Origin: a virus
DNA: 21,309 bases
Reading direction: 5' to 3' (one strand)
Virus record (IMG/VR): IMGVR_UViG_3300042446_001866
Location: 1-21,309 of that record
The stretch's first letter is position 1, and the number at the start of each line of letters is the position of its first letter. The notes under the pieces were generated by a model. It was not told the origin of the DNA and did no database searches. It saw nothing but the letters and a program-made list of their open reading frames with translations. The position numbers and the translations under genes are program-made. Below, one piece after another: positions 5,369-15,165 of the stretch.

Positions 5369-5572
5369 ATGGAAGAAATAAAAGCTTGTAAAAATTGCGA
5401 GTACTGGTATAAATTACCAGTAGACTTGGAAGGCAAACTAGACGTAGATACTTGTACAAAAATTAAAATTTATGATGACGACCCAGATGAGGACTACCCA
5501 CGGCTCGCAATCACTGAGCCCGACTTCTATTGTGCTTATTTTGAACCTAAAACGGGAGATTTAAATGACTAA
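5369..5572 (+). CDS. Small four-cysteine (zinc-knuckle-like) protein
   Basis: This 67-aa acidic protein has CKNC at residues 7-10 (CEYWY follows), CTK near residue 31 and FYCAYFEPK near the C-terminus. The pattern C-x2-C ... C ... C is common in small phage proteins likely to bind zinc. Its excellent Shine-Dalgarno (AAGGAGG, 7 nt from ATG) is the one buried in the leader hairpin, so it is the probable target of that control. It overlaps the next gene by 8 bp. Function is unknown. Confidence 0.7.
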   Translation: MEEIKACKNCEYWYKLPVDLEGKLDVDTCTKIKIYDDDPDEDYPRLAITEPDFYCAYFEPKTGDLND

Positions 5573-5966
5573 ACCCACACTAGCAGACGAAGTAAAAAAA
5601 TTGGCCGAGCTGAAAAAGGCTTATGACGATGCGGTTCTGGGTTTTGCCTTAATAAACCTCGAGTTACAGCCAGACGAGGAAGATCTTTTATCTGTACTGA
5701 AACGTAATATTTTAGCAAACGTAGAAGACAATGGCGAAAAACCACTTTATTTTTTAGATTGGGATTCTTTTGATGGAGACGACACAGACTACTTACACCA
5801 CGTGAGTTGGTTTTCTGCCCAATATGTCACGAAAGAAGAGATGGAAAAAGTCGCTAAACAAAATGGCTTTAAAGTTGAAACTGTCGATTTAGAATACGAC
5901 TATGAGCCAGAAGAAGGCGAAAAAGCTCATACAGTCAAAGCCCTTAAAATAACTTGGGGAGAATGA
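5565..5966 (+). CDS. Acidic protein, first of two tandem paralogues
   Basis: The 133-aa product is very acidic and shares a layout with the next protein: an N-terminal helix (LADEVKKLAELKKAYDDA), an aromatic/acidic middle (PLYFLDWDSFDGDDTDYLHHVSWFSAQY), then KVAKQNGFKVETVDLE and the ending VKALKITWGE. Acidic proteins of this size in phage accessory regions are often DNA mimics or inhibitors of host enzymes, but nothing here proves that. Its start overlaps the upstream stop, and the next gene starts one base after its stop, so the three are co-translated. Confidence 0.65.
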   Translation: MTKPTLADEVKKLAELKKAYDDAVLGFALINLELQPDEEDLLSVLKRNILANVEDNGEKPLYFLDWDSFDGDDTDYLHHVSWFSAQYVTKEEMEKVAKQNGFKVETVDLEYDYEPEEGEKAHTVKALKITWGE

Positions 5967-5967
5967 A

Positions 5968-6336
5968 ATGAATTTAGCAGAACAAGTGAGGCAAGTGCAT
6001 GAGTTGAAAAAACCCTACGAGCTGGCATTAAAAGAACTAAGCAAGCCTTACAGTGGGTTTGCTATGACTTGCGATGACTTTGACGGTTATTTTAAGTGCT
6101 TCATAACTCAAACAAAGCATGACGAAGTCTATTTTTTAGGCTATGACGATTACAATGACGAGTTCTACCGATTCGATAATTTAAGACACCTTAGTTGGTT
6201 TACATTTAGATGTAAAAACCACTCTGACGCAGAAAAACTCGCACATCAACACGGGTTCAAAACGGAAATGGTTATGCTTGAATCTTTTTGCGGGGTTACG
6301 GAAATAAAAGCACTTAAAATTAGTTGGGGAGAGTGA
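5968..6336 (+). CDS. Acidic protein, second tandem paralogue
   Basis: The 122-aa product aligns with the preceding protein: LAEQVRQVHELKKPYELA at the start, a Tyr/Asp-rich centre (VYFLGYDDYNDEFYRFDNLRHLSWFTF), KLAHQHGFKTEMVMLE, and the ending IKALKISWGE. The two share the SWF and GFK-(V/T)-E motifs and an almost identical C-terminus, but the middles have diverged. That suggests an old duplication with different targets. Function unknown. Confidence 0.65.
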   Translation: MNLAEQVRQVHELKKPYELALKELSKPYSGFAMTCDDFDGYFKCFITQTKHDEVYFLGYDDYNDEFYRFDNLRHLSWFTFRCKNHSDAEKLAHQHGFKTEMVMLESFCGVTEIKALKISWGE

Positions 6337-7168: not shown

Positions 7169-7807
7169 ATGATTGAATTAAACGAGCTGTTAAAAAACGA
7201 GTTTGGCAATAAGAAGCCTTATGAATCAGCGAATCAGGTGGCGATTATAGAGGCACGTATAAAAGCTACCTACCACCACCGTGGTCAGCTAAGAAATTAC
7301 ACTGAAAAACAACTGTATGTGGCTCATTGCCAAGACGTTGTTACTATTTTGCAGTACGCTGACGGGGTGACTGACGAAGCTATTCAAGCCGCGTGGTTGC
7401 ACGATACAGTCGAAGATACAAATTACACACTTGACCAAGTACAACAAGAGTTTGGAGGTACGGTTGCGAAATACGTGTGGTATTTGACGAACGTACCAAG
7501 GTTTGTTGGAAGCAGAAAAGAACGTAAGTCTATTGACAACGATAGGCTTATAGACGCACCTAGGCTAGTCAAAGAGATTAAGTGCGCGGACATCATTTCT
7601 AACTGTTTAAATATCGCGGAGCTTGACCAAGATTTTGCAGAGACTTACTTACGCGAAAAAGAAGCGTTACTGTTGGGATTTACTAAGAACCAGCTGGATG
7701 TAAATTATGAATACGGCTATCAAGTTGACAACATTACGTTGCTACCATTGGCGAGAAATGTTGTTGATGATGGGCTTAATCTATTAAATAATGGAGGCAA
7801 TAAATGA
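7169..7807 (+). CDS. HD-domain phosphohydrolase, SpoT/MESH1-like (possible (p)ppGpp hydrolase)
   Basis: This 212-aa single-domain protein has the metal ligands expected of the HD superfamily: His53 (YVAHCQDVV), His78-Asp79 in AAWLHDTVEDT with Glu82-Asp83, and Asp141 in IKCADIISN. The HDTVEDT block and the KxAD-x-x-x-N motif are those of the RelA/SpoT hydrolase domain and of small alarmone hydrolases (MESH1). No synthetase or TGS/ACT regulatory domain is present. It would act in the cytoplasm on (p)ppGpp or another nucleotide. Phage carriage suggests dampening of the stringent response or countering of nucleotide-based defence. Domain identity is strong; substrate is inferred. Its stop overlaps the next start. 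Confidence 0.75.
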   Translation: MIELNELLKNEFGNKKPYESANQVAIIEARIKATYHHRGQLRNYTEKQLYVAHCQDVVTILQYADGVTDEAIQAAWLHDTVEDTNYTLDQVQQEFGGTVAKYVWYLTNVPRFVGSRKERKSIDNDRLIDAPRLVKEIKCADIISNCLNIAELDQDFAETYLREKEALLLGFTKNQLDVNYEYGYQVDNITLLPLARNVVDDGLNLLNNGGNK

Positions 7808-8105: not shown

Positions 8106-8318
8106 ATGGGTAACGAAAGAAATAGACATTTTGCAATTGTTTTAGCGTGGGTCGGCGGATTTTTCGGCTTGCATCATTTTTACCTTGGCAACAACGGCGC
8201 TGGCATATTGTCGATTTTAATGTGCTGGACTTTTTTACCGTTGTGCGTATCATTGTTGAATGGCATTTCTTTGTTGTGCATGACTGGCAAAGAATTTGAT
8301 CGTAAGTATAATTTTTAA
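8106..8318 (+). CDS. TM2-domain membrane protein
   Basis: The 70-aa product behind AAAAGGAG has the TM2 signature: a first hydrophobic helix beginning FAIVLAWVGGFFGLHHFYLG, then NNGAGILSILMCWTFLPLCVSLLNGISLL as the second. The G-x-x-G-x-H-x-F-Y-L-G motif between helices is typical of the family. TM2 proteins occur in many bacteria and phages; their function is unresolved. It ends 11 bp before the ParB-like gene. Confidence 0.75.
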   Translation: MGNERNRHFAIVLAWVGGFFGLHHFYLGNNGAGILSILMCWTFLPLCVSLLNGISLLCMTGKEFDRKYNF

Positions 8319-8328
8319 GGCGTAAAAA

Positions 8329-8886
8329 ATGGAAACAAAAATCGTTGGCGTAAATAAATTAAAAAACAACACGGGGCAGGTTGAAGGCCTGCCAAAAAAT
8401 CCTCGGTTTATTAAAGACGATAGGTACGAAAAATTAAAAAAAAGTATAAAAGAGTTTCCAGAAATGATGGAGATGCGCGAGGTTATTGCCTATGATAATA
8501 ACGGGGAGCTTGTTGTAATAGCTGGCAATATGCGCCTTAGGGCGTGTAAGGATTTAGGTATTAAAGAAATATTCTGTAAGGTGTTACCAGCAAACACACC
8601 TGTTGAACGCCTGAGAGAAATTACCGTGAAAGACAACGTATCTTTCGGCAGCGACGACATTGACCTATTGGCCAACGAGTGGGACATTGGCGAGCTTGGA
8701 GACTGGGGGCTAGACCTACAAGATGTCAGCGAGCCTGACGTGGATAGCAAACCTGATGAGCCGCCGCCTTTTGACTACCAAGAGGCGCATTGCGTTCTTG
8801 TAACGTGCGATGGCGAAGCCGATCAGGAGAGAATTTACGGTGAGCTTGTTGGTATGGGCTTTAATTGTAAAGTTTTAGTTAACTAA
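8329..8886 (+). CDS. ParB-like N-terminal domain protein lacking the methyltransferase domain
   Basis: This 185-aa protein has a ParB/Srx-type N-terminal domain: LPKNPRFIKDDRYEKLKKSI at residues 21-40, an VIAGNMRLRACKDLGI block at 64-78 (GNMRLRA replaces the ParB GERRxRA box), then a helix ending in the acidic region. The C-terminal ~35 residues (HCVLVTCDGEADQERIYGEL, then GFNCKVL) resemble the tail of phage ParB-methylase fusions. Those fusions normally carry a DNA methyltransferase in the middle; here a short acidic/proline linker (about 133-150) takes its place. It is the first gene of the modification-type cassette and is 13 bp from the next gene. It may provide DNA recognition or nucleotide binding. 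Confidence 0.75.
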   Translation: METKIVGVNKLKNNTGQVEGLPKNPRFIKDDRYEKLKKSIKEFPEMMEMREVIAYDNNGELVVIAGNMRLRACKDLGIKEIFCKVLPANTPVERLREITVKDNVSFGSDDIDLLANEWDIGELGDWGLDLQDVSEPDVDSKPDEPPPFDYQEAHCVLVTCDGEADQERIYGELVGMGFNCKVLVN

Positions 8887-8899
8887 GAAGGCCATTAAA

Positions 8900-10045
8900 A
8901 TGAAAGTAAAAGTCAGAAATAAATGCTCGGATTTTAATAGTTACAGGGCATCTAGGGTAAAGTCTTTGTTTAACTGCGAAAGCGGCGCGGACTTTTCTTT
9001 AGACGCCGACCTTCCATTAGAAGACGGCGCGTGGAAAATAGGCGTTATTGTTGGCGCGTCTGGAAGCGGCAAAACCTCAATAGGTAAAAATATTTGGCAA
9101 GACGTTGGAATTTATGACGGCGACAATGGCTGGCCAGATAATGCCCCGATTGTGGACGCAATTTCACCAGACGGTGGCTTTGATGACGTAACGGGGGCGC
9201 TTTCAGCCGTTGGCCTTGGTAGCGTGCCAGCGTGGCTTAGGCCTTTTCACGCTTTAAGTAACGGCGAGAAATTTAGGGCTGGGCTGGCGCGTATTGTCGC
9301 GGAAAAGCCAGACCGAGTTATTATCGACGAGTTTACAAGCGTTGTTGACAGACAAATCGCGAAGGTAGGCGCGTCGGCATTTAGCAAGGCGTGGAAAAGA
9401 GGCTCGGGGCAGGCCATACTTTTATCCTGCCATTACGACATCTTAGATTGGGTCGAGCCAGACTGGGTTTTTGACACCAGAACGGGCGAACTCCAACGGG
9501 GGTCGCTTTGGCGAAGGCCAAAGTTTGAGCTTGAAATTTTCCAGACGGACGGCTCGTACTGGCCTATGTTTGAGCCGCATCATTATTTAAAGCTCCCAAG
9601 AATGGTGGCGGCGAAGTATTACGTTGGCTTTGTTGACGGTGAGGCGGTTTGCCACATGGCGGTTAGCCCAAGGCTTGAAATTGGTGGAATGCGCGCCTGC
9701 AGAATGGTAGTTATGCCAGAGTGGCAGGGCGCTGGTGTCGGTATGAAGTTTTTAAACGAGGTTTGCAGGTTGCAGTTTACCGACGCAAATAAATTTTACG
9801 AAAGAACAAAAGCCGTTTATTTTCATACCAGCCACCCAGCATTATGCGCCGCGTTGCGGCGGGATAAAAAGTGGGTTCAAGTCTCACAAATGATGGGAGG
9901 CGGCCATAAAGGAAGGTCAGGCTCGACAATAAATAAAAGCGCACAAAAAAAATCTTCTGGACTCGTAATGTCAGGCGGTGGATACGGCGGCCACCAACGC
10001 GCCGTTCAAGGGTTTAAGATGACAAAAGAAAAGGCTGGGCTATGA
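8900..10045 (+). CDS. ABC-type ATPase fused to a GNAT acetyltransferase (COG2401-like)
   Basis: The 381-aa protein has a complete ABC ATPase half: Walker A GASGSGKTS (52-60), signature LSNGE (119-123), Walker B RVIIDE (139-144), D-loop SVVD (147-150) and switch His178. The helical subdomain is short, and there are no membrane spans, so it is not a transporter. The C-terminal half (about 205-345) is GNAT-like: VVMPEWQGAGVG at 270-281 is the acetyl-CoA motif A (Q-x-x-G-x-G), followed by FHTSHPALCAALRRDKKW. This is the ABC-ATPase/acetyltransferase fusion known as COG2401. The GNAT half also recalls Mom, the GNAT-fold DNA-modifying enzyme of phage Mu. A nucleic-acid modification role is inferred. 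Arg codons AGG/AGA seem preferred here. Stop overlaps the next start. Confidence 0.78.
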   Translation: MKVKVRNKCSDFNSYRASRVKSLFNCESGADFSLDADLPLEDGAWKIGVIVGASGSGKTSIGKNIWQDVGIYDGDNGWPDNAPIVDAISPDGGFDDVTGALSAVGLGSVPAWLRPFHALSNGEKFRAGLARIVAEKPDRVIIDEFTSVVDRQIAKVGASAFSKAWKRGSGQAILLSCHYDILDWVEPDWVFDTRTGELQRGSLWRRPKFELEIFQTDGSYWPMFEPHHYLKLPRMVAAKYYVGFVDGEAVCHMAVSPRLEIGGMRACRMVVMPEWQGAGVGMKFLNEVCRLQFTDANKFYERTKAVYFHTSHPALCAALRRDKKWVQVSQMMGGGHKGRSGSTINKSAQKKSSGLVMSGGGYGGHQRAVQGFKMTKEKAGL

Positions 10046-10671
10046 ACGTGCTTATAGCAGGACAAAAATGGTTCGGGGCGGAAACTTTTCGCGCTTTAAA
10101 AAATATTAGCGGAGTTAATATAGTTGCGGTATGCGCGCCAGTTGGTGTGGGGGACAGGCTGGCGGCGCAGGCAAATTTGCACGGCGTTAAAATAGTACCG
10201 TCTGGCGAGCTTAAGGCCGAAACGATGCCAGAGGGCATTGACCTAATAGTGGCCGCGCATTCCCACGACTTTATCGGGGAAAAAACGAGGCAAAGGGCAA
10301 GGTGGGGAGGAATAGGCTACCACCCTAGCCTGTTGCCGTTGCACAGGGGCAGAGATTCCGTAGAATGGGCGTTAAGAATGGGCGAAAAAGTTACTGGGGG
10401 GAGCGTTTACAGATTAAGCAACAAAATGGACGGTGGAGAAATTTTAGCGCAGGAACACGTATTTATAAGGCCAGACGATACGTCAAAGGAGCTTTGGGTT
10501 AGAGATTTAGCACCGCTCGGCGTTCGGCTACTTGCAAAGGTCGTTTTTGATTTTGCAAGTTACGGCTACCAGTACGGAGTGCCGCAGGATGAGGAGCTGT
10601 CTTCTTGGGAGCCATCAATAGGCAGGCCGCCAGCTTATCGGCCAGACCTTTTGATGCTGGAAAAAAAATAA
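10042..10671 (+). CDS. Formyltransferase-family protein with an altered active site
   Basis: The 209-aa protein has the N-terminal Rossmann half (MNVLIAGQKWFG...IVAVCAP) and the formyltransferase core: GYHPSLLPLHRGRDSVEWAL at residues 92-111 and GGSVYRLSNKMDGGEILAQE at 119-138. The catalytic His (94) and Asp (130) of the GART/Fmt family are present. The Asn usually two residues before the His (N-x-H-PSLLP) is Gly92. No C-terminal Fmt tRNA-binding domain is seen. It overlaps the ABC-GNAT gene by 4 bp, implying joint action. Transfer of a formyl or related one-carbon group to a product of the GNAT enzyme is possible but unproven. Confidence 0.75.
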   Translation: MNVLIAGQKWFGAETFRALKNISGVNIVAVCAPVGVGDRLAAQANLHGVKIVPSGELKAETMPEGIDLIVAAHSHDFIGEKTRQRARWGGIGYHPSLLPLHRGRDSVEWALRMGEKVTGGSVYRLSNKMDGGEILAQEHVFIRPDDTSKELWVRDLAPLGVRLLAKVVFDFASYGYQYGVPQDEELSSWEPSIGRPPAYRPDLLMLEKK

Positions 10672-10683
10672 AGGGGGTAAAAA

Positions 10684-11091
10684 ATGGCAAATTTAACACC
10701 AAAGCAAGAGGCATTTTGTCAAGCGATATGCGATGGGATGAGTCAATCTGACGCTTATCGCCACGCCTATAATGCCTCAAAAATGAAGTCAGAAACAATT
10801 CAAAATAGCGCTCACCAATTAATTCAGAACCGCGAGGTTACCGCGAGGATTCAAGAGTTAAGGGGTAAGCTTGAAGCAAAGCAAATTTGGACGCGTGAGC
10901 AGTCGGTTAAAACAGCAATAAGAGCCATTAAAATGGCTATTAATAATGGTAGGCCAAGCGATATGCTGAAAGGCGTTGAGGTGCTAAACAAAATGCACGG
11001 CTACGACGCGCCAATCAAGCATGACGTGAAAAGCACTGGCGGTTTTAACATTAACATCGTGACGACTAAAGAGGACTTAGAGAATGACTAA
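10684..11091 (+). CDS. Terminase small subunit
   Basis: The 135-aa protein begins LTPKQEAFCQAICDGMSQSD, then AYRHAYNASKM, the helix-turn-helix start typical of the Terminase_2 family. This is followed by a helical region (ARIQELRGKLEAKQIWTREQ) and a C-terminal tail that probably contacts the large subunit. It recognises the packaging site on phage DNA. The ribosome site is GGGGG just upstream. It overlaps the large-subunit gene by 8 bp. Confidence 0.9.
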   Translation: MANLTPKQEAFCQAICDGMSQSDAYRHAYNASKMKSETIQNSAHQLIQNREVTARIQELRGKLEAKQIWTREQSVKTAIRAIKMAINNGRPSDMLKGVEVLNKMHGYDAPIKHDVKSTGGFNINIVTTKEDLEND

Positions 11092-12334
11092 AGTCTTTAT
11101 GCCCGAAAAACTTGTGCCAGTTGCGCAAAATGTCCTATCAGAAATTTACAGCAAAGTAATACTTTACGGCGGCCGTGGTTCTGGTAAATCCCAAGCCTTG
11201 GCCGCTTATGGCGTTATGGAAAGTTACAAAAATGACGGGGTGATATTGTGCGCGCGCGAGATTCAAAAGAGCATCAACGATTCAATCTATGCCAGCATCG
11301 TGAGCGCAATTGAACATATGGGCTTGTTGGCAGACTTTTACATCACAAAAACGACAATCACAAACCTACAAACGGGGGCGGTGTTTTTGTTCAGTGGACT
11401 TAAAACTAACATCACCGCGATCAAGTCGATTAACAAGTTGCGCGTTGCGCTTGTGGACGAGGCGGAGAACGTGAGCGAAAACTCATGGAATATTTTAATG
11501 CCAACCTTGCGTTATTTAGACACGCGCGTTTATATTGTATTTAATCCGAGATTTGAGAAAGACCCGACTTATAAAATGTTCGTGAAAGACGCGGATTCTG
11601 ATACGTTGTGCATTAAAATTAACTACAATGACAACGTGATGTTTCCAGCGTCTCTTGAAAAACAAAGGTTGGCCATGTACGCAAAGTCAGAGCGAACAGG
11701 TGATTTTAATTTGTACAATTGGGTGTGGAACGGCGACTTCATGAAAGTAGCCAACGCGGCAATCCTCGGTAACCTGTTACAAGTGGAGCATTTTGAAGTT
11801 GACGATAGCTTTGGACGGCCTTACATTGGGATAGACTGGGGTTTTTCTATTGACCCAAACGTCGTTGTCGAGTGTTACGTGAAAGGGCGCAACCTTTACG
11901 TTAACCGCGTGGGCATGGCGCATAAGTTACCGCTAAACCGCACGGCGGCATGGCTAAAAGACCAAGTGCCACTGGTAGAGAGTTGGCCGTCATGGGCGGA
12001 TTGTGCGCGGCCTGAAACTGTTAACCAAATGAATTTGGACGGGCTTACTAAAGTAAAATCTTGCACCAAAACAAAGATAAACGACGGCGTGGCCGTGTTA
12101 CAATCTTTCGACAAAATCATCATCAACACCACCGCTGGCAAAACTCGTGACGTTCAAGAAATGGCAGTGAGTGAGTTGGCTGGATACAGCTACAAAACGT
12201 TAAACAAGGATACGCCGCAAGAGGTGGTTACGCCTGACATTGTTGACGCATCAAACAACGTGGCGGACGCGATTCGTTACGCGTTGCAAGACTTGATTAT
12301 TAAAGAAATCAAACAACCTTTTTTCATAGGATAA
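11084..12334 (+). CDS. Terminase large subunit (PBSX-type)
   Basis: This 416-aa packaging motor has the ATPase half with Walker A GGRGSGKS (29-36), Walker B VALVDEAE (121-128) and a coupling motif near FNPR (153-156). The nuclease half starts at YIGIDWG (247-253), where Asp251 is the likely first metal ligand. Length and motifs match the PBSX/Terminase_3 family. It cleaves concatemeric DNA and translocates it through the portal. The portal gene follows after 4 bp. Confidence 0.92.
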   Translation: MTKVFMPEKLVPVAQNVLSEIYSKVILYGGRGSGKSQALAAYGVMESYKNDGVILCAREIQKSINDSIYASIVSAIEHMGLLADFYITKTTITNLQTGAVFLFSGLKTNITAIKSINKLRVALVDEAENVSENSWNILMPTLRYLDTRVYIVFNPRFEKDPTYKMFVKDADSDTLCIKINYNDNVMFPASLEKQRLAMYAKSERTGDFNLYNWVWNGDFMKVANAAILGNLLQVEHFEVDDSFGRPYIGIDWGFSIDPNVVVECYVKGRNLYVNRVGMAHKLPLNRTAAWLKDQVPLVESWPSWADCARPETVNQMNLDGLTKVKSCTKTKINDGVAVLQSFDKIIINTTAGKTRDVQEMAVSELAGYSYKTLNKDTPQEVVTPDIVDASNNVADAIRYALQDLIIKEIKQPFFIG

Positions 12335-13523: not shown

Positions 13524-14209
13524 CGCTCGAAGAAGAAGCCAAACAGCGTGACGGCTTAGAAGAAGAAGCGGCGGCGGCGGTTATTTTGGCGTTGCTTTTG
13601 ATTGATAAGCAACTGGCCGCAACACTCGGGCAGACTGTCACGCAAGCGCAAGTGGTTAAAGCGCAAGAGTACTTGTTGGCCGCGAGACTGATTGGCTGGG
13701 AATGGGTTAAAAGCAACGCTTACGATGCAAAGGTTGGCCAAACTGTTTTTGATTCGAACGATGCGGCCACATGGGCGGCGGATAACGTGGCATACATGGC
13801 CGAAGGCAGTAGAAAAATAATAGAAGATGCGCTTGAAGGATTAGACGGAAAAACAAGCGATGCGGAAAAGAAAAAAATAGCCGAATCAGTGCTAAAATCA
13901 AGGCAAGACAATCGGGTCACAGCTTACGCTGACGATGCGGTCAATGGAGCGGTTGAATTGGGCAAGTACCTTGTTGTGGGCAGTTTTTTTTTAGCTAACA
14001 ATGAAAAAATAAATAAGACTTGGTATAACGTTGGCGACAACAAAGTGCGCCAAACTCACATTAAAGCTGACGGCCAAACTGTTGGTTTTTTAGAAAAATT
14101 CAAGGTTGGAGGTTACGAGATGCGGTTCCCTCGTGATAACATTGCGCCAGCCAAAGAGACGGCACGGTGCCGATGCTCGGCTGTTTACTCAAAGAAATGG
14201 AGCAAGTGA
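13520..14209 (+). CDS. Phage head morphogenesis protein (Mu F-like minor capsid)
   Basis: The 229-aa protein has a long, alanine- and charge-rich N-terminus (EEEAAAAVILALLLIDKQLA), a central helical part, and the conserved C-terminal SPP1 gp7/Mu F-type domain. That domain includes TWYNVGDNKVRQTHIKADGQ, FKVGGYEMRFPRDNIAPAKE and the final ARCRCSAVY. The cysteine pair CRC is typical. It works with the portal in head assembly. Its TGA overlaps the next ATG. Confidence 0.85.
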   Translation: MTLEEEAKQRDGLEEEAAAAVILALLLIDKQLAATLGQTVTQAQVVKAQEYLLAARLIGWEWVKSNAYDAKVGQTVFDSNDAATWAADNVAYMAEGSRKIIEDALEGLDGKTSDAEKKKIAESVLKSRQDNRVTAYADDAVNGAVELGKYLVVGSFFLANNEKINKTWYNVGDNKVRQTHIKADGQTVGFLEKFKVGGYEMRFPRDNIAPAKETARCRCSAVYSKKWSK

Positions 14210-15165
14210 TGGACGCAAAAGACATCAAAATAAACAATACTGAAGCGCTGGGAAACTTTCAAAGCGCTGACAATATGGAACGGTACGTCCAACAAATCGC
14301 GCAAAGCCTAACCGAAATCATAAACAATGGCGGTGGTGGTGGTGGTGGCGGGAGAAACGTTCAGGTTGGCGCAACGACAACGTTGCCAGCAGGCGCAAAT
14401 GCAACGGTGTCAGAAAGCCCACTATCGACTGAAAACACTTTGATTTTAGACTTTGGCATACCGCAAGGCATTCAAGGTATAAATGGCGATAAAGGCGACA
14501 CTGGCGCGACGGGTGCTGCTGGAGCGAACGCGGCCAATCCTATTTTTACAATAGGAACGGTAACGTTAGGCGCAACAGCAAGCGTGACGTTGACTGGCAC
14601 CTACCCAAATTTAACCTTAAATTTTGTTTTGGTTAAAGGCGACAAGGGCGATACTGGGGCGGCGGGCGAACCAACACCTCTGACGGCGGCACAGTTGACA
14701 GAGTTTGGCCACGGTCATTCTCGCTACGAGTGGACAGGGTCGCAAAACATAGCCAACAACACCACGTTGAATTTTGCAAGCCTCACTGGTTTTGCAAAAA
14801 ACAACACGGTTGGCGACACCATAAATTTTACGTTGACTGGCGGTGTATTTAAAACTCCAGCCTACGCAAAAAAAATCAATTTTACGGCCACTATTTCTTT
14901 GACTGGTACAATTGGCGGAAGCCCTGGCACACCGCGTGAGTTTCCAATTGAGCTTAGACGCGCCGACGGCGTAACTTTGCTTAGACGGCAAGCGGTTGTT
15001 AAAGTGGCAGACAACGATTTAGCAAGCCGCAACGTCGGGTTTTTGTCATTCGTAAACGGCGCGACCGACCCGTTCGTTGTCGATGGCTTTACATATTTTT
15101 TAAACAATAACAGTAGCCAATCAATTACACTAACAAATGTTCGTATTGATTTTTTTAAACAATAA
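14209..15165 (+). CDS. Collagen-like head fibre protein candidate
   Basis: The start at 14209 (GGAG 8 nt upstream, TGATG overlap with the previous stop) is preferred over an ATG 42 bp earlier; that gives 318 aa. Residues 1-40 are a helical anchor region, 41-48 are eight glycines encoded by GGT/GGC/GGG codons, and two beta-rich modules follow. Each module ends in a short collagen-like stretch: QGIQGINGDKGDTGATGAAG (about 85-105) and GDKGDTGAAGEP (about 144-155). The C-terminal ~150 residues look like a beta-structured trimerising head or receptor-binding domain. Its position between morphogenesis and protease genes points to a head-decoration fibre rather than a tail fibre. The exact role is inferred. 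Confidence 0.65.
   Translation: MDAKDIKINNTEALGNFQSADNMERYVQQIAQSLTEIINNGGGGGGGGRNVQVGATTTLPAGANATVSESPLSTENTLILDFGIPQGIQGINGDKGDTGATGAAGANAANPIFTIGTVTLGATASVTLTGTYPNLTLNFVLVKGDKGDTGAAGEPTPLTAAQLTEFGHGHSRYEWTGSQNIANNTTLNFASLTGFAKNNTVGDTINFTLTGGVFKTPAYAKKINFTATISLTGTIGGSPGTPREFPIELRRADGVTLLRRQAVVKVADNDLASRNVGFLSFVNGATDPFVVDGFTYFLNNNSSQSITLTNVRIDFFKQ

Follow-up and report, generated by a model that had tools for sequence, protein, structure and literature searches.

An earlier prediction assigned DNA base acylation to ABC-GNAT proteins, in which an ABC-type ATPase and a GNAT acyltransferase domain are joined in one polypeptide (Iyer et al. 2013, as cited in PMC7824862). Base acylation by these proteins is thus a prediction in the literature, as it is in the present study (PMC7824862). 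DNA-modifying enzymes are known to be encoded in loci that lead from a ParB gene to the terminase genes (ParB-TLS loci; PMC6536676), and Com is described as activating mom translation in PMC6483171. With respect to formyl transfer, the hydrolase domain of FDH has the residues His-x-Ser...Asp and delivers formyl to the thiol of pantetheine, and HypX has been proposed to pass formyl to CoA (PMC6802093). Here, we compared a three-gene viral cassette with these systems and found that it most likely attaches a small acyl group to the DNA of the phage itself, which would shield this DNA from host defences.

The window is the entire 21,309-base virus record, which includes no host genome and may represent only part of the phage. 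The open reading frames were uninterrupted for the ParB-like protein (8329-8886, 185 aa), the ABC-GNAT (8900-10045, 381 aa) and the formyltransferase-fold protein (FT; 10042-10671, 209 aa). A 13-nt gap separates the ParB-like gene from the ABC-GNAT gene, which overlaps the FT gene by 4 nt (ATGA), and 12 nt lie between FT and the start of TerS. These values bear out a sequence-only reading in which the three genes overlapped or nearly touched. The family assignments made in that reading (ParB-like, ABC ATPase plus GNAT, and formyltransferase fold) also hold on the basis of the PHROG and Pfam matches and the GNAT fold (Table 1); in the cassette, PHROG matches to ParB, nuclease and DNA-methyltransferase families reached 6e-16, and the match to phrog_17622 reached 5e-48. 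The order of ParB, modification genes, TerS and TerL in the window corresponds to the ParB-TLS arrangement.

Table 1. Features of the cassette and the adjoining terminase genes in the window.
Feature	Position	Strand	Evidence
ParB-like N-terminal domain, residues 1-140	8329..8748	+	PHROG ParB, nuclease and DNA-methyltransferase matches
C-terminal mini-domain of ParB, residues 148-185	8770..8883	+	phrog_28816 match, residues 148-183
ABC-type ATPase domain, residues 1-205	8900..9514	+	ABC_tran 9.5e-07, motifs, fold
ABC ATPase motifs	Walker A 9053-9076; signature LSNGE 9254-9268; Walker B Asp-Glu 9326-9331; H-loop His 9431-9433	+	
GNAT acyltransferase domain, residues 207-381	9518..10042	+	domain-only AlphaFold model, fold matches
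GNAT motifs	CoA loop QGAGVG 9725-9742; HHYL motif near 9578-9589	+	
Formyltransferase-fold protein FT	10042..10668	+	Formyl_trans_N 6e-20
FT active-site residues	His94 10321-10323; Ser96 10327-10329; Asp130 10429-10431; Gly92 10315-10317	+	active-site alignments
Terminase small subunit TerS, boundary of locus	10684..11091	+	Terminase_2 1e-08
Terminase large subunit TerL, downstream mark of ParB-terminase locus	11084..12334	+	Terminase_3 3.3e-35

Several other genes of the window were also observed. A TM2-domain membrane protein (8106-8318, 4e-11) is encoded immediately 5' of the cassette, and an HD-domain protein with a match to the RelA/SpoT hydrolase region (7169-7807; spoT_relA 1.1e-11, HD_4 1.5e-09), possibly a phage alarmone hydrolase, is encoded just upstream. 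Two neighbouring small genes (5565-5966 and 5968-6336) are paralogues with 36% identity, apparently from a tandem duplication, and a protein encoded among the structural genes (14167-15165) contains a collagen-like Gly-X-Y stretch (GINGDKGDTGATGAAG...).

The AlphaFold model of the full-length ABC-GNAT, based on a 110-sequence alignment, had a pLDDT of 91; its ATPase part matched ABC ATPases with a Z-score of about 15, and its GNAT part (residues 207-380) matched GNAT acyltransferases. The Pfam match of the latter (Acetyltransf_7, 4.5e-04) lay under the Pfam cut-off, and the assignment was confirmed by fold. In particular, the GNAT domain modelled alone (pLDDT 89) matched 1y9k with a Z-score of 16.2 (139 aligned residues, 2.9 Å) and RimI (2cnm) with a Z-score of 15.0 (133 aligned residues, 2.5 Å), and SpeG was also matched. 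As modelled, the GNAT half is a canonical acetyl-CoA GNAT fold with a conserved CoA loop. The ABC motifs were invariant or almost so among 110 diverse homologues. Walker A, the signature, Walker B, the D-loop, the H-loop and the CoA loop were kept in both major ABC-GNAT clades, and G277 and G279 of the QGxGxG loop were at least 94% conserved in the clade linked to FT and at least 90% conserved in the other ABC-GNATs. Since the ATPase and CoA-loop residues are kept across both clades, both halves look active as judged by residue conservation. Clade-specific residues that distinguish the FT clade from the others numbered 22/176 in the GNAT domain and 16/205 in the ABC domain; because this difference is slight and a long stem leads to the clade, we gave it no weight. 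GNATs of the same fold, such as RimI and SpeG, also acetylate proteins and small amines, so the fold leaves the target unfixed.

The FT accompanies one ABC-GNAT clade as a dedicated and stable partner. Among the 117 ABC-GNATs placed in a tree, every FT-linked protein fell inside a single clade with 100% SH-aLRT support. An FT adjoined the ABC-GNAT in 82/89 testable loci of this clade, in contrast to 0/79 outside it (Fisher 3e-40, a value that is uncorrected for shared descent). Loci that had been fetched by FT were omitted from this count, and the loci were assigned to clades by a two-HMM split; a motif-based split misfiled 19 loci. The reverse search, starting from FT, revealed an ABC-GNAT in 78 of the best 80 FT loci, and the other 2 start at a contig edge. 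Co-occurrence of FT and the ABC-GNAT, two of the three genes for which the sequence-only reading had proposed such a check, was found from both directions, and the linkage recurs in unrelated phages. Seven clade members lack an adjacent FT (L018, L037, L296, L310, L314, L316 and L320), indicating that FT is not strictly needed locally. We also found two divergent FT subtypes, each forming its own clade; the rarer subtype requires 4 changes on the ABC-GNAT tree, and 0/200 bootstrap trees require only 1. As the subtypes replace one another on the ABC-GNAT tree, the slot persists while the gene that occupies it changes.

The names given to the FT in libraries and records differ: library matches include a cyanobacterial phosphoribosylglycinamide formyltransferase and phrog_9240, annotated as PurN-like, and Gordonia phage records label the cassette FT as a tRNA-methyltransferase. 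The first of these names would suit an auxiliary metabolic gene of purine or folate metabolism that merely adjoins an ABC-GNAT modification gene. We consider this very improbable, as the FT is confined to one ABC-GNAT clade and closely coupled to it in most loci, a second FT subtype repeatedly takes the same slot, and the active site is not that of PurN.

The active site of the cassette FT differs from those of the amine formyltransferases. E. coli Fmt, ArnA and PurN carry an Asn two residues ahead of the catalytic His, whereas 59/59 non-redundant cassette FTs carry Gly or Ile at this position, which is Gly92 in the window. The catalytic Asn-x-His...Asp of Fmt, ArnA and PurN was accordingly absent from all 59 sequences, with the His and Asp kept, and His94, Ser96 and Asp130 were invariant in a 16-row FT alignment. 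The best solved relative was the hydrolase domain of FDH (ALDH1L1; E 2.7e-18), whose His-x-Ser...Asp triad is present in FT; this triad is common to other folate formyltransferases and therefore does not single out FDH on its own. The earlier description of a formyltransferase-fold enzyme stands for fold and family, and the alteration of the active site changes what chemistry is likely. From the alignments, the absent Asn does not prove thiol transfer by FT. The neighbouring GNAT should use an acyl-CoA, and the simplest reading is therefore that FT makes formyl-CoA for it; we infer that FT probably supplies formyl-CoA to the GNAT half.

FT could also be an ordinary N-formyltransferase within the same DNA-modification system, in which the GNAT half first attaches an amine-bearing acyl group (e.g., glycyl) to a base and FT then caps the amine with formyl, either on DNA or on the free donor. 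PurN formylates the amine of glycinamide, which provides a precedent together with the PurN-like annotation of phrog_9240, and the fold and the folate-type His and Asp are kept in FT. We consider this arrangement rather unlikely, given the replacement of the Asn in 59/59 sequences and a best solved relative that uses a thiol.

We found that the ParB gene combines a swappable domain with a constant one. The mini-domain formed the C-terminus of ParB or stood alone as an ORF of 36-66 aa in 79/80 viral loci, and the exception is cut by a contig end. The ParB domain has been lost in 38 loci, where an independent ORF (phrog_28816), usually overlapping the start of the ABC-GNAT, encodes the mini-domain. 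The compared ParBs encoded ahead of methylases, Mom or other genes bore other tails, and we did not find the mini-domain on them. The ParB domain of the window shared 24-30% identity with the ParB domains of the closest ABC-GNAT relatives, and these ParB domains shared 49-69% with one another, whereas the mini-domain shared 42-60% identity with those same relatives. The nearest viral relatives of the window ParB domain (61-67% identity) were ParB-N6_N4_Mtase fusions that precede terminase genes, which agrees with the relationship to phage ParB-methylases proposed from the sequence. The ParB gene of the window thus arose by fusion of the mini-domain of this system with a ParB domain that derives from ParB-DNA methylase fusions of phages. 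Judged by these identities, the ParB domain resembles a module that is shared and exchanged, and the mini-domain resembles a specific adaptor of the ABC-GNAT.

A number of records were notable with regard to these genes. The 42-residue ORFs named 'acr candidate' in Porphyromonas phage records (L002, 5876-6004) are the ABC-GNAT mini-domain, which makes the anti-CRISPR label doubtful. Pseudoalteromonas phage SL25 (L088, 3959-5029) encodes ParB and ABC-GNAT where the record annotates no gene. In L339 (3018-3713), ParB adjoins an ORF that starts with TIGFSTGKDSVVGLDMM and has a PAPS-reductase-type look, with no Pfam match at E <= 0.001; the pair is perhaps another modification cassette. In L336 (4713-5579), an ORF resembling S-adenosylmethionine synthetase (PF00438 3e-07, just under the cut-off) lies beside ParB and a methylase-like ORF.

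Comparison of the genomic contexts revealed two types of placement. Among 68 ParB-type loci, the long ORF that follows was nearly always TerL, and these TerLs belonged to four or more Pfam families; elsewhere, ParB precedes a Mom gene. In Mu-like phages, Com, the mini-domain and the ABC-GNAT occupied the mom site in 32 loci, mostly with FT. The Com homologue was PF10122, with E down to 1.9e-13 in the Mu-like loci, and L033 and L034 were left out of the count, as an HNH-like ORF had met the Com pattern there. The same Com-led order was present in bacterial genomes including Pseudomonas, Chromobacterium and Cardiobacterium. A matched pair of P. aeruginosa phages displays the exchange directly: GEC_PNG14 carries Com-Mom, whereas Komp_PAO1_1 carries Com-mini-ABC-GNAT-FT. 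No Com was found in the window, where ParB lies upstream of the ABC-GNAT instead. On the ABC-GNAT tree, the Com branch was nested within the ParB-type branch, so ParB was probably lost once the cassette came under Com control. In the Mu-like phages, the cassette follows the tail genes and lies apart from those for head and packaging. A position directly before the terminase is therefore real in the window and recurs as a ParB-terminase locus, but it is not essential.

The proposed comparison of the GNAT domain with Mu Mom was supported with regard to function but not to sequence family. The Mom profile PF25680 gave no match to the window protein at E <= 1 (2e-75 for the Mu Mom control), and a profile comparison of ABC-GNAT with Mom was not significant (1.6% probability); membership of the Mom family is thus not supported by sequence. 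The Mom structure 8bv8 was not among the 50 fold matches listed for the GNAT domain, an absence that excludes nothing. The comparison is functionally apt because, in Mu-like phages, related cassettes follow Com at the mom site.

These contexts bear on the target of the cassette. The GNAT fold is closest, among the matches listed, to RimI, SpeG and N-terminal acetyltransferases, and Fmt-like enzymes formylate Met-tRNA, to which the tRNA-methyltransferase name in the Gordonia records may be added; the cassette could accordingly act on RNA or protein (e.g., tRNA, the host polymerase or the terminase) and not on DNA. Its site, however, is shared and exchanged with DNA methylases and Mom, and relatives are placed behind Com. 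Moreover, the location of the Mu-like cassettes after the tail genes, and not near those for head and packaging, makes the terminase an unlikely target. We regard a target in RNA or protein as improbable. We infer DNA as the target because of the ParB-TerL loci, the ParB domain nearest to DNA methylase fusions, the ParB that precedes Mom, and the Com and mom-site loci; on this context, DNA modification by the cassette is likely. A role in defence or superinfection exclusion, as opposed to self-protection, is the most improbable of the alternatives: the ABC part has weak PADLOC matches (mad3, AbiLi), but these span generic ABC motifs only, and neither a toxin nor a nuclease gene is linked to the cassette, whose neighbours are instead terminase, ParB and Com.

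The sequence-only reading had taken arginine codon choice as a hint that the cassette was transferred as a unit. AGA and AGG accounted for 30/45 Arg codons in the cassette versus 23/108 in the structural genes (Fisher 2e-07), and the reported difference from the structural genes is thus present. The early genes, however, used them in 53/91 cases and did not differ from the cassette (p = 0.36), so codon choice is no mark that sets the cassette apart and does not support single-unit transfer. The GC content was highest in the ABC-GNAT and FT genes (0.50), with 0.37 in the early genes and 0.45 in the structural genes. Additionally, the history of the ParB domain differs from that of ABC-GNAT and FT, and the cassette was therefore not moved as a single unit here.

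Taken together, the cassette is probably a phage DNA hypermodification system of the ABC-GNAT type, in which a DNA base is acylated and FT acts in the same pathway. In the mechanism that we propose, the ABC ATPase half would serve as an ATP-gated clamp on phage DNA, and ParB with its mini-domain tail would recruit and position the enzyme, the mini-domain as an obligatory adaptor and the ParB part as a swappable targeting module. FT would take formyl from 10-formyl-tetrahydrofolate and probably load the GNAT donor as formyl-CoA; the GNAT half would then move the acyl group from the CoA thioester to an exocyclic amine of the base before packaging. The resulting mark on the DNA would be an N-formyl or formyl-derived group, and the acylated base would block host restriction nucleases. 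In its most specific form, in which FT makes formyl-CoA from 10-formyl-tetrahydrofolate and the ABC-GNAT, placed by the ParB mini-domain, formylates exocyclic amines of DNA bases, the proposal is tentative. If true, it would mean a folate-derived N-formyl modification of DNA and a GNAT that depends on formyl-CoA, and the cassette would be interchangeable with mom and the phage methylases. DNA modification by ABC-GNATs has so far been a prediction without a chemical product, and a folate-borne formyl group now offers a chemical clue; an obligatory small partner and a direct exchange with mom and phage methylases are also added. Confirmation of the product would establish both a novel DNA modification and a novel route by which phages evade restriction. 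Cultured phages that carry the cassette include the Gordonia phages Axumite, Sisko and NHagos and the Pseudomonas phage Komp_PAO1_1.

We compared the cassette with the known systems. FT resembles the FDH (ALDH1L1) hydrolase domain, to which its top-scoring solved relatives belong, in keeping His-x-Ser...Asp and lacking the Asn; in contrast to FDH, it has no fused carrier or dehydrogenase domain and is encoded beside an acyltransferase. The N-terminal domain of HypX likewise lacks the Asn, but FT is without the enoyl-CoA hydratase-type domain of HypX. The similarity to Mu com-mom lies in the cassette relatives behind Com (PF10122) at the mom site, the GNAT acyltransferase fold and a likely anti-restriction role, whereas the window cassette has a fused ABC ATPase, a canonical CoA loop, FT and the mini-domain, and no Com. 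The window also resembles the ParB-TLS loci (PMC6536676) in its series of ParB, modification gene(s) and TerS/TerL, as in the methylase loci of Paracoccus phages; it differs in having ABC-GNAT and FT instead of a methylase, and in a ParB tail seen only with ABC-GNAT. In the open-licence literature, we found no paper that ties a formyltransferase or Com to ABC-GNAT, and we did not find the FT-coupled clade, the altered FT active site, the mini-domain or the exchange with mom described there. The ABC-GNATs predicted as acylases (PMC7824862) belong to the same family as the window protein and likewise join an ABC ATPase to a GNAT domain in a single polypeptide. The published example QAX98348.1, encoded at L091, shows homology to the ABC-GNAT of the window (tblastn E 7e-40, gene in AsFcp_2), which places the window protein within a kind already known by prediction. 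It differs from these predicted acylases in lying in a separate clade with an FT partner, a mini-domain link and Com-controlled members, an apparently unrecognised ABC-GNAT subtype in which a formyltransferase is the dedicated partner of the putative acylating enzyme.
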